A stretch of 64,000 nucleotides of DNA from Anaerococcus hydrogenalis DSM 7454 (GTDB taxonomy: Bacteria; Bacillota; Clostridia; Tissierellales; Peptoniphilaceae). Under the pieces are notes generated by a model. The model did no database searches, was not told the DNA's origin, and saw nothing but the letters and a program-made list of their open reading frames with translations. Made by a program: the position numbers and the translations under genes. Shown in pieces: positions 2,505 to 23,359 of this stretch. The stretch spans positions 1 through 64,000 of the forward strand of contig NZ_ABXA01000049.1 of the NCBI RefSeq assembly GCF_000173355.1, read 5' to 3'. The stretch's first letter is position 1, and each line of letters starts with the position of its first letter.

Positions 2505-3068
2505 TTATAGCTTTCTTATAGAAACAAGGTAGGGAGGATTATTGATTTGATTATAAAAATCATATTTGATAACTTGAAATAATTTTTGATCTAAACTTTT
2601 CAAAAATTCTCCAACATATTTAGCCTCACTTTTCCCCTCATCATGACCTGGATAAAAAGTCATTAAAATAAGACCATTTTTATTTAAAAGTTTTAAAGAA
2701 GATTTTAAAGAGCCTATGACTGACTTATAATTTGTAGTTATAGACTTATCTCCCTTTGGCAAAAAACCAAGATTATAAATAAAAAGGTCTATTTTTTCAC
2801 TTATATAATTTTCTATATTTTTATGGTCATCTAGGATAAATTTAAAATTATTATTATTTCCAATAAGATCTAGGGTATTTTTCCTCGCCAAATCTTGGAT
2901 ATCAAAAGCATACAAAATTTGTGGATTTTTCTTATCCAAGATAAATTTTGAATCGTATCCATTTCCAGCTGTCATATCGCAGGCATTAATCTTATTTCCT
3001 ATCCTATTTTCTATAATATAATGGGAAAGTTTTACTGGGTTATTTATAATTTCATCAATATATTTCAT
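2505..3068 (-). CDS. mnmM: Class I SAM-dependent methyltransferase, MnmM/YtqB family (tRNA wobble uridine modification)
   Basis: A 187-residue Rossmann methyltransferase of the PF06962 (YtqB) family. B. subtilis YtqB was identified as MnmM, which methylates the 5-aminomethyl-2-thiouridine wobble base of tRNA; transfer of that function here rests on family membership. The SAM-binding motif DMTAGNGYDSKF sits near residues 31-42, the acidic loop is YAFDIQ, and the family signature NLGFLPKGDKSITT is near residue 100. The start overlaps the 3' end of the upstream metallopeptidase gene by 14 bp, so the two are probably co-translated, although no functional link is known. Confidence 0.8.
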   Translation of the reverse strand: MKYIDEIINNPVKLSHYIIENRIGNKINACDMTAGNGYDSKFILDKKNPQILYAFDIQDLARKNTLDLIGNNNNFKFILDDHKNIENYISEKIDLFIYNLGFLPKGDKSITTNYKSVIGSLKSSLKLLNKNGLILMTFYPGHDEGKSEAKYVGEFLKSLDQKLFQVIKYDFYNQINNPPYLVSIRKL

Positions 3069-3606
3069 GGTTTCTCATATCCTTACCGTTAATATCTCTA
3101 AAAAATCTTGAATCAGCCTCTTCTTTTCTTATTTTTATCCCCATCCTATGCATCTCATTTAATTTGAAAATCATAAGATTCACATTTACATTATAAATTG
3201 ATGCAAGCTGGTTGTAAGTATAGCCTTCTTTTATATCCTTTAATAACTGATTTTCATCCAAAAGAAGGTGGGCTGCAAAAATATTTGCACACAATTCCAT
3301 CTCACTGTTTATGTCAAAAAGTTCATACTCAATTAGGTTTTCATTTTTTGCCATGTCCCTATGATAGATATCATGGCCCAATTCATGGGCAAAAACCATA
3401 TTTTGAATTCTTTTATCAACAAAGGGATTATAAAAAACAAAGGAATTTCTTTTTATGATTTTATACATGCCTAAAAGTTTGGTATTTTCCTTAAAGGCAA
3501 TTATATTTACCCCTCTTTGGATTAAAATTTCCCTAGGATCCCTGCTATCATATTTTTTAATTAAATTTTTTACATCCTCATAAATTTGATCATACAAAAA
3601 AGACAT
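3055..3606 (-). CDS. ImmA/IrrE-type zinc metallopeptidase
   Basis: A 183-residue protein with the ImmA/IrrE (DUF955) domain. HELGHDIYH (near residue 74) supplies the HExxH zinc site, and the glutamate-rich stretch ending EMELCANIFAAHLLL supplies the third ligand region. Proteases of this family cleave the XRE repressor encoded beside them: ImmA cuts ImmR in ICEBs1, and IrrE/PprI cuts DdrO in Deinococcus. Here the XRE gene lies immediately upstream (8-bp gap) in the same direction, so the same partnership is inferred. The C-terminal 40 residues are basic and poorly conserved. The trigger that activates it cannot be read from sequence. Confidence 0.85.
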   Translation of the reverse strand: MSFLYDQIYEDVKNLIKKYDSRDPREILIQRGVNIIAFKENTKLLGMYKIIKRNSFVFYNPFVDKRIQNMVFAHELGHDIYHRDMAKNENLIEYELFDINSEMELCANIFAAHLLLDENQLLKDIKEGYTYNQLASIYNVNVNLMIFKLNEMHRMGIKIRKEEADSRFFRDINGKDMRNHEIY

Positions 3607-3614
3607 AGTTTCAC

Positions 3615-4013
3615 CTAATCCTTGTGGGGATTATATTTTTTATTTTTATTTTTTGCTATATAGTAAGCCTCTTGGATAGAATCTAGGATTGCTTTTTTAT
3701 CTTTTTCATCAATTTCTCCACCAGCCATAAGGCCGATTACCCCATCAACCATTTCCTTGGCGTCTTTTGCTCCCTTATAACCATATTTTTCCCTAGCATC
3801 AAGAATAAAATTATCCTCATCAGTTACAAGGTAATCATGGCTAGTATCTAAAACTTCTGCAAGCTTATCATAAACCTTCCTATATCTTGGCTTTGATTCT
3901 CCCATTTCATATCTTGAGATTGTTTTTAAAGAAACGCCAACAAGCTTTGCAAGCTGATCTTGAGTCAAATTTTTACTTTCTCGAAGTTGTCTTAACTTAG
4001 TTCCAAAACTCAT
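3615..4013 (-). CDS. XRE-family transcriptional repressor (candidate ImmA/IrrE target)
   Basis: A 132-residue protein with an N-terminal helix-turn-helix (residues about 1-60, LTQDQLAKLVGVSLKTIS) and a C-terminal region that may dimerise and be cut by the neighbouring peptidase. An upstream in-frame GTG at 4037 exists, but the ATG at 4013 is preceded by AAGGAGAAAAT and fits the family start, so it is preferred. It is divergent from dinB, and the shared 142-bp gap contains overlapping promoters and a regular set of GAC/GTC half-sites. That layout suggests it represses both itself and dinB. It could equally be a relic of a prophage or ICE switch, but no phage genes are nearby. Confidence 0.8.
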   Translation of the reverse strand: MSFGTKLRQLRESKNLTQDQLAKLVGVSLKTISRYEMGESKPRYRKVYDKLAEVLDTSHDYLVTDEDNFILDAREKYGYKGAKDAKEMVDGVIGLMAGGEIDEKDKKAILDSIQEAYYIAKNKNKKYNPHKD

Positions 4014-4030
4014 ATTTTCTCCTTTTTTAA

Positions 4031-4145
4031 AAGACACTCAAAGACTTAGAGTCGTTAAAAGTCTTGACAAAAGACATTAAGCGTCTTAAAATCTAATTAA
4101 GTCATTCACTGTCATAATTATACAATAAGAGTCATTTAAGTTCAA
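4031..4145. promoter_or_regulatory. Overlapping promoters and phased operator array between XRE gene and dinB
   Basis: Plus-strand dinB promoter: TTGACA at 4064-4069, 17-bp spacer, TAAAAT at 4087-4092. The spacer is filled by the inverted repeat AAGAC-N7-GTCTT (4071-4087). Minus-strand promoter for the XRE gene: TTGAAC (4145-4140), 17 bp, TATAAT (4122-4117). AAGAC occurs at 4031, 4041 and 4071, and GTC at 4051, 4061, 4101, 4111 and 4131, i.e. on a 10-bp register along one face of the helix. The motifs are read directly; their use by the XRE protein is inferred. Confidence 0.7.
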
Positions 4146-4155
4146 GGAGGAAAAA

Positions 4156-5355
4156 ATGCTTAGAACAATCCTACATTCAGATATGAATTCTTGTTATGCA
4201 TCAATCGAGGCAAAATTAAATCCAAAATTAAAAAATAAGGCCATGGCAGTTTGTGGAGATCCAAGAAATAGGCATGGGATAATTCTCGCAAAAAGTCAGG
4301 AGGCAAAAATTATGGGGGTAAAAACAGGAGAGGCGATTTGGCAGGCGAAAATTAAATGTCCAAATTTAATTTTAGTTCCTCCTCATTACGAAAAATATTT
4401 AGAATTTTCAAGAAAGGCCAGAAAAATTTACTATTCCTATACAAATAGGGTGGAGCCTTTTGGCCTTGATGAATGTTGGCTTGATGTAAGCGAAAGTTTA
4501 AAACTTTTTGGAAGTGGGGAAGAAATTGCAAATCAAATAAGAGAAAGGATGAAAAAAGAATTGGGAATTACTGTAAGTGTTGGAGTTTCTTTTAATAAAG
4601 TATTTGCAAAACTCGGTTCGGATTTAAAGAAACCTGATGCAACAACTTTAATAAAAAAAGAAAATTTTAAAGAAATAGTCTGGCCTCTTGATATTTCTTC
4701 AATAATAGGCATTGGAAAAGCAACAAAAAGAAAATTAAATGGAATAGGAATTTATAGTTTGGGAGATCTTGCCAAAACAGATTCTGATGCAATAAGGGGA
4801 ATTTTGGGCATAAATGGTCTGTACTTATGGCAATACGCAAATGGTCTTGATGATAGGCCGGTAAAAGATTATTCTTATAGGGAAGTTATAAAAACAATAG
4901 GAAATTCATCGACTCTTGTGGAAGATTTGTACACTAATGAGGAAGTTTATAACATTTTTCAAATTTTATCTTTAAATGTTTCCAAAAGATTAAGGGAGGC
5001 TAATCTTTCTTCTATGGGGGTAAATATTTTTGTTAGGGATAATAATTTATTTTCCTATGAATTTCAAAGTCCAATAAATAATCCCACCCAATCTTCAATA
5101 ATTCTTTCAGAAAAAGCAATAGATCTTTTTAAGAAAAAATATAAGTGGAATTTTCCCATAAGGGCACTTGGGATTAGGGCTATAAATTTGGTTGATGATA
5201 AAATTCCTGCCCAAACTGATATTTTTTCAGATTATAAAAAAATTATAAAAAAAGAAAATCTGGATAAGGCAATTTATGATATAAGAAAAAAATATAATAA
5301 GGATGTTTTAACATTTGCCTCTTTAAAAAATAATAAAAAAATTTCCAACAGATAA
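4156..5355 (+). CDS. dinB: DNA polymerase IV (Y-family translesion polymerase)
   Basis: A 399-residue DinB/UmuC-type error-prone polymerase that copies past damaged bases. The palm residues are visible: Asp in HSDMNSCYASIE (residues 8-19), and the Asp-Glu pair in PFGLDECWLDVS (near residue 104). Next come the helix-hairpin-helix IIGIGKATKRKLNGIGI and a C-terminal little-finger domain. No clear beta-clamp peptide is obvious at the end. The start follows AAGGAGGAAAAA. It is divergent from the XRE/ImmA pair, and its promoter spacer carries a palindrome, so it is probably damage-inducible through that pair rather than LexA (no LexA-like box was seen). Confidence 0.93.
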   Translation: MLRTILHSDMNSCYASIEAKLNPKLKNKAMAVCGDPRNRHGIILAKSQEAKIMGVKTGEAIWQAKIKCPNLILVPPHYEKYLEFSRKARKIYYSYTNRVEPFGLDECWLDVSESLKLFGSGEEIANQIRERMKKELGITVSVGVSFNKVFAKLGSDLKKPDATTLIKKENFKEIVWPLDISSIIGIGKATKRKLNGIGIYSLGDLAKTDSDAIRGILGINGLYLWQYANGLDDRPVKDYSYREVIKTIGNSSTLVEDLYTNEEVYNIFQILSLNVSKRLREANLSSMGVNIFVRDNNLFSYEFQSPINNPTQSSIILSEKAIDLFKKKYKWNFPIRALGIRAINLVDDKIPAQTDIFSDYKKIIKKENLDKAIYDIRKKYNKDVLTFASLKNNKKISNR

Positions 5356-5396: not shown

Positions 5397-5420
5397 ATAG
5401 GATGTAAGTCCTATTTTTTA
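5397..5420 (+). terminator. Rho-independent terminator after dinB
   Basis: Stem ATAGGA / TCCTAT around loop TGTAAG, followed by a run of T. It lies 42 bp after the dinB stop codon. Confidence 0.7.
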
Positions 5421-5518
5421 TTTGAAAAAATTTAATAAATTTCTTAAAAACAAAAAATACATCTTTAATTTTCAAAAAAACTATGGTATGATTATTTTAC
5501 ATTCAAGTTGGGAGAATA

Positions 5519-22222: not shown

Positions 22223-23359
22223 ATGTATAAATTATCAGAAGATTATGAAGAAATGAGACAAATGTTCCATGACTTTGCAGAAGGTGAAGTAAAACCTCTA
22301 GCTCAAAAAGTTGACGAAGAACACATGTTCCCAGAAGAAACAGTTGCAAAAATGCAAGAATTAGGTTTCTTTGGTATTCCATTTGATGAAGAATTTGGTG
22401 GACAAGGTGCTGACACACTTACATATGTACTTGCAGTAGAAGAAATTTCAAAATATTGCGCATCAACAGGTGTAGTTTTATCAGCTCATACTTCTTTATG
22501 TGCTGATTGTATTAATAAATTTGCTAATGATGAACAAAAGAAAAAATATCTAACACCACTTGCAAGTGGAGAAAAATTAGGTGCTTTTGCCCTAACAGAA
22601 CCAAATGCAGGAACTGATGCTTCAGGACAACAAACAGTTGCAAAACTTGATGGCGATGAATATGTACTTAATGGTACAAAAATATTTATTACAAATGGTG
22701 GATACGCTGAAACATATATAGTATTTGCTATGACAGATAAATCTAAAGGAAATCATGGAATTTCTGCATTTATAGTTGAAAAAGGAACAAAAGGATTTGA
22801 TTTCGGTACTCTTGAAAATAAAATGGGAATCAATGGTTCATCAACTATGGAATTAATCTTCCAAGATTGTAGAATACCTAAAGAAAATTTACTTGGAGAA
22901 GAAGGTAAAGGATTCAAGATTGCTATGGCTACTCTTGATGGAGGAAGAATAGGAATCGCAGCTCAAGCTCTAGGTATTGCAGAAGGTGCTTTAGAAAAAG
23001 CAGTTCAATATTCTAAAGAAAGAGAACAATTTGGACGTCCTTTAGCAAAATTCCAAAATACACAATTTAAATTAGCTGAAATGGCTATAGAAATAGAAGC
23101 AGCAAGACACTTAGTTTATAAAGCAGCAAGCTTAAAAGATGCTGGTGAAAATTATTCAGTAGCTGCAGCTATGGCAAAATTAAAAGCATCAAGAACAGCA
23201 TCATACGTTGCTAACAGAGCAGTTCAAATTCTTGGTGGATATGGATATATCAAAGAATATGATGTAGAAAGAATGATGAGAGATGCAAAAATTACAGAAA
23301 TTTATGAAGGTACTTCAGAAGTAATGTTAATGGTTGTATCAGGAGCATTATTAAGATAG
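22223..23359 (+). CDS. bcd: Acyl-CoA dehydrogenase, probably butyryl-CoA dehydrogenase
   Basis: A 378-residue FAD enzyme that reduces crotonyl-CoA to butyryl-CoA in butyrate formation, working with EtfAB. The family patterns are present: ALTEPNAGTDASGQQTVAK near residue 125, FITNGGYAETYIVFAMTD for flavin contact, and the C-terminal AVQILGGYGYIKEYDVERMMRD. The catalytic base Glu is in ITEIYEGTSEVM near residue 365. The ATG at 22223 follows TTAGGAGAAAAT. Upstream in-frame ATGs would add 22 AT-rich residues and are rejected. It is followed 24 bp later by etfB and etfA, the arrangement of electron-bifurcating Bcd-EtfAB complexes. Confidence 0.92.
   Translation: MYKLSEDYEEMRQMFHDFAEGEVKPLAQKVDEEHMFPEETVAKMQELGFFGIPFDEEFGGQGADTLTYVLAVEEISKYCASTGVVLSAHTSLCADCINKFANDEQKKKYLTPLASGEKLGAFALTEPNAGTDASGQQTVAKLDGDEYVLNGTKIFITNGGYAETYIVFAMTDKSKGNHGISAFIVEKGTKGFDFGTLENKMGINGSSTMELIFQDCRIPKENLLGEEGKGFKIAMATLDGGRIGIAAQALGIAEGALEKAVQYSKEREQFGRPLAKFQNTQFKLAEMAIEIEAARHLVYKAASLKDAGENYSVAAAMAKLKASRTASYVANRAVQILGGYGYIKEYDVERMMRDAKITEIYEGTSEVMLMVVSGALLR

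Follow-up and report, generated by a model that had tools for sequence, protein, structure and literature searches.

Pairs of an XRE-family repressor and a COG2856 metalloprotease are found in many bacteria, and as of 2021 prophages or transposons were the targets of the few that had been examined outside Deinococcus (excerpts of PMC7907104). The Deinococcus operators, termed RDRM, are 17-bp palindromes near the -35 and -10 elements (excerpts of PMC8533742). The predicted regulon there includes ddrO itself, and the signal for the protease IrrE has been reported as zinc/redox (excerpts of PMC7907104) and also as single-stranded DNA (excerpts of PMC10904395). In ICEBs1, an integrative and conjugative element (ICE), the regulatory regions hold opposed promoters and six sites, and ImmA cleaves ImmR at F95-M96, a position in the linker that joins its two predicted C-terminal helices (excerpts of PMC8960796). 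Here we describe a chromosomal pair of this kind in Anaerococcus hydrogenalis DSM 7454, within the first 64,000 nucleotides of contig NZ_ABXA01000049.1 (the window), where an XRE repressor gene and an ImmA/IrrE-family metalloprotease gene face dinB, the gene for DNA polymerase IV. The locus is probably a switch like ImmR/ImmA or DdrO/IrrE that governs translesion synthesis and base repair, acting as an SOS-type stand-in. This reading is carried by the gene order, the sites between the genes, their pattern of conservation and loss, the occurrence of common sites at a repair operon and the lack of a LexA match. Nothing on point about XRE/ImmA control of dinB, or about an SOS response in Anaerococcus, was found in the open-access literature, and a term search of the text of a paper on Y-family polymerases (PMC6511836) returned no mention of XRE or IrrE.

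The genes concerned are the following.

3615..4013, minus strand: XRE (Cro/C1-type helix-turn-helix) repressor gene, 132 residues, ATG at 4013; Pfam HTH_3, 8.4e-15, scored on a 140-residue GTG-start form

3055..3606, minus strand: ImmA/IrrE-family metalloprotease gene (Peptidase_M78), 183 residues, HELGH and a downstream Glu; Pfam, 4.1e-12

4156..5355, plus strand: dinB, Y-family DNA polymerase IV, 399 residues; Pfam IMS, 5.4e-43

2505..3068, minus strand: mnmM tRNA-modification methyltransferase gene; NF053511, 6.2e-57; its start overlaps the 3' end of the protease gene

The family searches, which give an HTH_3 repressor, a Peptidase_M78 protease and a Y-family polymerase, agree with the identities proposed by an earlier, sequence-only reading of this DNA. 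An AAGGAG ribosome site, seen by eye before the ATG at 4013, makes the 140-residue form of XRE less likely. Against NCBIfam, the window DinB scores 6.8e-98 with PRK03103, which is nonetheless below the cut-off of that model, and lies above the cut-off of PRK02406. The protease gene is directly 3' of the repressor gene, the order seen in ImmR/ImmA-type pairs, and mnmM is likely co-transcribed with both. In 25 of 30 Anaerococcus loci mnmM adjoins the protease gene (it is missing from L023-L025, unlisted for L021 and masked in L022). The sequence-only reading had described a three-gene module of repressor, protease and dinB; these components stand, and the description is too narrow in that the operon extends to mnmM and the likely regulon includes at least one unlinked repair operon. 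XRE has a strong match in 31/31 Anaerococcus genomes, and named relatives of it are in A. senegalensis (95%), A. jeddahensis, A. vaginalis and others. No carriage by an integrative element was seen, in that the neighbours to 12 kb look chromosomal save for a transposase at the edge, no systematic search for elements having been made; mobile homologues of XRE/ImmA are separate from the chromosomal pair. The edge transposase, at 22-441 on the left of the window, is partial and IS3-type as judged by eye, without family search.

The space between XRE and dinB holds two opposed promoters and a 17-bp palindrome, AAGWC-N7-GWCTT, in five copies, of which two are exact, two have one mismatch and one is degenerate.

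4064..4092, plus strand: dinB promoter TTGACA-N17-TAAAAT, 11 of 12 sigma-70 consensus positions

4117..4145, minus strand: XRE promoter TTGAAC-N17-TATAAT, 10 of 12 sigma-70 consensus positions

4071..4087, no strand: operator O1, AAGACATTAAGCGTCTT, exact; AAGAC-N7-GTCTT inside the dinB -35/-10 spacer

4099..4115, no strand: operator O2, AAGTCATTCACTGTCAT, one mismatch; at the likely XRE transcription start

4119..4135, no strand: operator O3, TATAC-N7-GTCAT, degenerate with three mismatches, by eye; XRE -10/-35 region

4031..4047, no strand: operator O4, AAGACACTCAAAGACTT, exact; XRE leader

4049..4065, no strand: operator O5, GAGTCGTTAAAAGTCTT, one mismatch; overlaps the dinB -35

Both promoters named in the sequence-only reading are confirmed, that of dinB at 4064-4092 with the palindrome at 4071-4087 in its spacer, and that of XRE at 4145-4117 on the minus strand, inside the array of sites. 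The number of promoter-like matches is in itself unremarkable (three found versus a shuffle mean of 1.3, standard deviation 1.0). O2 and O3 together cover the XRE promoter. At least two exact copies of the palindrome within the 139-bp region arose in 1 of 20,000 dinucleotide shuffles, and at least four sites with one mismatch or fewer arose in none of 20,000; no exact copy was found in the remainder of the 64-kb window. Because the motif was derived from these same regions, independent support comes from the comparison across the genus.

In Anaerococcus, dinB faces XRE at 25 of 30 loci, three of the 25 dinB genes being interrupted. O1 is present within two mismatches, in the -35/-10 spacer of dinB, at all 25 loci where dinB is beside XRE (21 exact), and O2 is present within two mismatches at 30/30 loci. 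These include the five loci without dinB beside XRE (L005, L006, L007, L010 and L015), all of which keep O2; O1 is gone from four of them and decayed, with a changed -35, in one. The dinB gene that has been relocated in G017 (locus L113, the XRE locus of this genome being L010) keeps three operator-like sites, as judged by eye. At L019, L028 and L113 both arms of O1 have changed to AGGAC...GTCCT, as expected for the site of a symmetric dimer. Taken together, the loss of O1 with dinB, the retention of O2, the relocated sites and the paired arm changes point to O1 serving dinB, to O2 and O3 serving XRE, and to a symmetric binder acting in trans. A permissive pattern for O3 finds a match at 30/30 loci, yet the first match lay elsewhere in L005 and L028. 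O4 varies across the genus, and O5 is at its window place only in L001-L005. The O1-O2 distance is 27 bp in one locus, 28 bp in 12, 29 bp in 10 and 30 bp in three (26 loci having both), and the O2-O3 distance is 20 bp in 27 of the 28 loci measured and 19 bp in one; spacings were computed by script, with the values for L002, L009 and L028 taken from the operator listing.

Two further observations concern the polymerases. Where the module dinB is interrupted by stops, in L014 (G029), L017 (G014) and L008 (G023), the XRE gene, the protease gene and the operators remain, and the radical-SAM (rSAM) operon described below is present in all three genomes. A second DinB, about 29-34% identical, occurs outside the module in 31/31 Anaerococcus genomes (e.g. 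G000:C25:7731-8771), and by coordinates adjoins recA in most of them, not in G017.

The LexA family PF01726 was matched in 0/31 Anaerococcus genomes versus 30/30 genomes outside the genus, six of which belong to the same family as Anaerococcus. The genome that contains the window is 84% complete, and 27 of the genus genomes are at least 90% complete. An exact LexA box, GAAC-N4-GTTC, was found in 0/30 module regions and in 0/30 recA upstream regions; the sole exact match in the 64-kb window, at 22319, is probably due to chance. Neither a LexA gene nor a canonical box thus contradicts the earlier proposal of LexA-independent control, in which a chromosomal XRE and ImmA/IrrE pair faces dinB with predicted operators on both promoters.

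Eight genomes of the A. vaginalis group were searched with a sequence profile made from the module sites alone. Of 1226-2076 first-look candidates per genome 150 were scored, so targets may be missed. The profile recovered the promoter of an rSAM gene in 8/8 genomes (E 0.012-0.31). The gene product falls in TIGR03916, a family of putative DNA modification/repair proteins, and the gene is found above cut-off in 20/31 Anaerococcus genomes; at L129 (G026) it is followed by a gene for a TIGR03915 putative DNA-repair protein and then by one for a deoxyinosine glycosylase. When a weight matrix from module sites only was applied, with 446 upstream regions as controls, 20/20 rSAM upstream regions scored above the 95th control percentile and 17 of them also above the 99th. 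A search for the operator upstream of other repair genes had been suggested by the sequence-only reading, and at this operon a predicted site is indeed present. From the controls, 183 regions were removed for overlap with targets or for sharing their best 17-mer with them; those used are not independent, many being orthologues, and still include recA and uvrB sites. The rSAM site lies just after the -10, at the transcription start, in ten genomes (L124-L133) and overlaps the -35 region in ten others (L134-L143), as judged by eye, indicating that the placement changed and a site was kept. One or two separate palindromes are borne by these promoters.

The two repair targets have a complementary distribution. 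All seven genomes in which the module dinB is absent (G003, G008, G012 and G030) or interrupted (G014, G023 and G029) have rSAM, and all 11 genomes without rSAM have an uninterrupted dinB (Fisher p 0.033, uncorrected for ancestry, and some of the interruptions may be assembly errors). Every one of the 31 genomes therefore retains at least one of the two.

A ComK-like protein of 158 residues is encoded in 30/31 genomes, with Pfam ComK matched in 9/12 members (best E 0.0013, the first member being below the curated cut-off). Its upstream regions exceeded the 95th control percentile in 23/30 cases and the 99th in only four. A matrix from O3 only, two of whose training sites (L005 and L028) were in the wrong places, put 10/30 of these promoters above the 95th percentile, and this weak result makes the ComK-like gene a second-tier target. 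At L246 the gene adjoins a sigma-70-like gene.

Simple pattern matches were less informative. The one-mismatch pattern gave 108 hits in the 31 genomes versus 43 when it was reversed, which marks many such hits as background. The genome of the window has 18 exact sites (backward control, 0), two of them in the module; of 13 examined among the other 16, 11 lie inside open reading frames, which indicates that the regulon cannot be read from exact matches alone. A recurrent site (G000:C49 / G001:C3) was rejected as a target, being inside a PTS-like gene as judged by eye. One exact operator with a -10-like end (L112 position 2008, G025:C1:201607) lies just upstream of what by eye is a Clp-ATPase-like gene, in one genome only.

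The protease residues H74, E75, H78 and E104 are invariant in 21 aligned sequences, forming HELGH (HEIGH in L042) with the downstream Glu, an intact HExxH metalloprotease site as in ImmR/ImmA pairs. Searched against the PDB, the protease profile matched CapP (7t5t, 1.9e-6) best and IrrE (3dte) at 0.002. The structure model of XRE has C-terminal helices at 65-96 and 103-127, with a mean pLDDT (predicted local distance difference test) of 87 and values of about 70-76 at residues 91-110. The predicted helix 65-96 ends with L95-M96, which adjoin the linker and are followed by AGG; positions 95-96 are LM in 18/18 Anaerococcus rows and LF or MF in seven others. XRE residues 1-63 align to residues 3-64 of the ImmR chain, nearly in register, and L95-M96 matches the F95-M96 of ImmR by residue number only, because the PDB chain of ImmR covers no more than the DNA-binding domain. 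From alignment, model and analogy with ImmR, cleavage of XRE is a concrete prediction, and L95-M96 would most likely be the position of the cut.

Outside the genus, the XRE profile matches 105/130 family genomes at E 1e-12, a count into which other XRE proteins, and also the 31 Anaerococcus genomes, enter. We compared 46 non-Anaerococcus loci, 40 chosen from the strong profile hits and six found earlier; the 40 leave out 165-residue mobile-type matches and second matches, and L042 comes from another family of the same order. A Y-family polymerase neighbours XRE in 29/46, as a facing dinB in 18, as XRE-ImmA-UmuC-type polymerase in 10 and as a dinB upstream on the same strand in one. In several of the 18 facing loci other palindromes fill the spacer of the dinB promoter: ACGCAATTAAATTGCGT (L341), GTGCAATTAATAGCAC (L360) and AGGAAGATTATTTTCCT (L371). 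At L043 (G033) one XRE-ImmA pair is faced by two tandem dinB genes. At L045 (~5415-5460) and L368, in another genus, a long hairpin in the dinB leader, seen by eye, contains an operator-like palindrome and extends to the ribosome site. XRE-ImmA pairs at L046 and L049 (G017 and G028), together with the 165-residue matches, lie in recombinase-bearing elements and coexist with the chromosomal pair; the XRE matches in such elements have near-equal profile scores across several genera.

The pair could instead be a housekeeping or domesticated mobile-element regulator, in which the repressor binds the palindromes, the protease senses a signal other than damage (a metabolite, cell density or oxidative zinc release), and the response in which dinB and the repair operon take part is one to general stress, not an SOS stand-in. 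We regard this as unlikely, if far from negligible. XRE homologues of less than 60% identity occur in 74 phage and 33 plasmid records, and further homologues stand beside ImmA in recombinase-bearing elements (L042, L046 and L049). The tRNA modifier MnmM is within the operon, and the signal of Deinococcus IrrE has itself been given both as zinc/redox (excerpts of PMC7907104) and as single-stranded DNA (excerpts of PMC10904395). The best supported targets are nevertheless DNA-repair genes, and a Y-family polymerase is repeatedly found beside the pair outside the genus, in the 29/46 loci.

It is quite improbable that the palindromes are bound by another regulator, such as an S24-type repressor, with XRE a mere neighbour. 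The sequence is compatible with this, and the genome searches did not take in S24 repressors. XRE is present in 31/31 genus genomes, however, and the five loci in which no dinB adjoins XRE all retain O2 beside it. The recognition helix of XRE reads KTISRYE in 18/18 aligned Anaerococcus proteins and has other sequences in seven others; the operator differs outside the genus as well, with a palindrome still in the dinB spacer of several loci. Operator and recognition helix thus appear to change together, which links XRE to the palindromes.

The sequence-only reading had also pictured XRE coating one face of the helix on a 10-bp lattice. AAGAC does recur at 4031, 4041 and 4071, and GTC at 4051, 4061, 4101, 4111 and 4131, on a 10-bp step, with a further GTC at 4083 off it. 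The spacing of 10 bp is real within each 17-bp palindrome, where two GWC triplets lie 10 bp apart, the source of most of the step; as a unit across the array it does not hold, for AAGAC and GTC starts differ in half-site position. In close relatives, set earlier as a test, the sites persist across Anaerococcus and their mutual 10-bp phase does not. Despite the eight positions on the step and an O2-O3 distance of 20 bp in 27/28 loci, polymerisation of XRE on one helix face over the whole intergenic region is very improbable, since the step mixes two reference points, the drift of O1-O2 over 27-30 bp shows that strict phase is not conserved, O4 and O5 are not conserved, and each rSAM promoter has one palindrome or two separate ones; the sites are better described as separate palindromes with variable spacing, and helix-face coating is dropped.

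In the DdrO/IrrE- or ImmR/ImmA-like switch that we favour, XRE would be a dimeric repressor of the ImmR/DdrO type, bound to 17-bp AAGWC-N7-GWCTT palindromes as separate sites. Occupancy of O1, between the -35 and -10, would block dinB, and occupancy of O2 and O3 over its own promoter would give autorepression of the XRE-immA-mnmM operon. The repair operon (radical SAM TIGR03916, then the TIGR03915 protein, and in G026 also the deoxyinosine glycosylase) would be repressed in trans by XRE, as probably would the ComK-like gene. DNA damage, or a linked zinc/redox signal, would lead the co-transcribed metalloprotease to cut XRE between its C-terminal helices, most likely at L95-M96, and the cleavage would induce translesion synthesis and base repair. 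The pair would in this way run the remainder of an SOS-type response, LexA having apparently been lost from the genus. Damage is suggested as the signal because of the targets, the missing LexA and the known relatives (excerpts of PMC10904395 and PMC7907104).

Several points weigh against this switch. The binding of XRE, its dimeric mode, the cleavage, the signal and the induction are all things that we infer. The Foldseek matches of the XRE model to DdrO and ImmR lie mainly within the DNA-binding domain. The LexA negative comes from PF01726 only, S24 and HdiR-like repressors not having been searched for in the genomes. The module dinB is dispensable. A recA site is found in 4/30 genomes (G002, G011, G015 and G019), all without rSAM (the recA of G017 was not among the loci), and a uvrB site is clear in 1/30, with L276 scoring 4.8, barely over the 4.6 threshold (the uvrB of G004 was not among the loci). 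The rarity of these sites implies that a full SOS regulon is not covered, and recA and uvrB were both rejected as general members. Outside the genus, the pair lacks a polymerase neighbour at 17/46 loci, some of them near contig ends. In a crude symmetry test only 5/18 of the non-genus dinB promoters fell below a shuffle fraction of 0.05, uncorrected for 18 tests, and symmetry was weak in 13/18. Finally, the pair and LexA occur together in four genomes outside the genus (G032, G033, G035 and G036), which argues that the pair did not arise as a LexA substitute and probably predates the loss of LexA.

A wider proposal, which we hold tentatively and with some doubt, is that the whole genus replaced LexA by an ICE- or phage-type metalloprotease-repressor switch, with the ComK-like gene also repressed and damage coupled to DNA uptake and, in one genome group, to recA. 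If true, repression of the ComK-like gene would couple DNA damage directly to DNA uptake. The pair itself is small, tractable and chromosomal; its operator is defined and its cut site predicted, it has likely DNA-repair targets in the host, and no LexA was found in these bacteria. It makes testable how an anaerobe without LexA controls mutagenic repair, and whether switches of mobile elements can be turned to the damage responses of a host.

Among known systems, several share a part of this arrangement. FddR of Francisella differs in being an S24-family peptidase rather than an XRE and metalloprotease pair. The CapH/CapP regulators of defence operons are likewise an XRE and metalloprotease pair, and PADLOC gave 3.8e-10 for the capP model and 2.1e-10 for the capH model, neither being the top model for its protein. 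CapH/CapP is induced by DNA damage, and its targets are defence operons, not DNA repair. The SOS regulon of Bacteroidetes, under a non-canonical LexA, includes dinB and the base-repair operon COG1573-COG4277, which encodes a uracil-DNA glycosylase and a radical SAM protein (excerpts of PMC8565304). Its targets, dinB and radical SAM, are similar to ours, but they are controlled by LexA. COG4277 is presumably the family of TIGR03916.

The best reading of its class places the Anaerococcus pair with the COG2856/XRE kind, whose gene pair and active site it shows, without two features of Deinococcus and without carriage by an ICE. In the DdrO/IrrE (PprI) system of Deinococcus the XRE repressor is cut by the COG2856 metalloprotease, and its targets, like the likely ones in Anaerococcus, are DNA-repair genes. 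Operators of 17 bp and palindromic form are common to the two, with a different sequence, and in Anaerococcus, as with DdrO/IrrE, a predicted operator of this form stands at several DNA-repair promoters (dinB and the rSAM operon). IrrE has a GAF-like domain, whereas the Anaerococcus protease is a single Peptidase_M78 match in 183 residues; the Deinococcus targets include recA and uvrB, which carry a site in 4/30 and clearly in 1/30 Anaerococcus genomes, respectively. The ImmR/ImmA pair of ICEBs1 in Bacillus subtilis is likewise a small XRE protein and a small ImmA with opposed promoters. It faces ICE genes, whereas the Anaerococcus pair is chromosomal, genus-wide, mostly beside mnmM, and faces a polymerase of the host.

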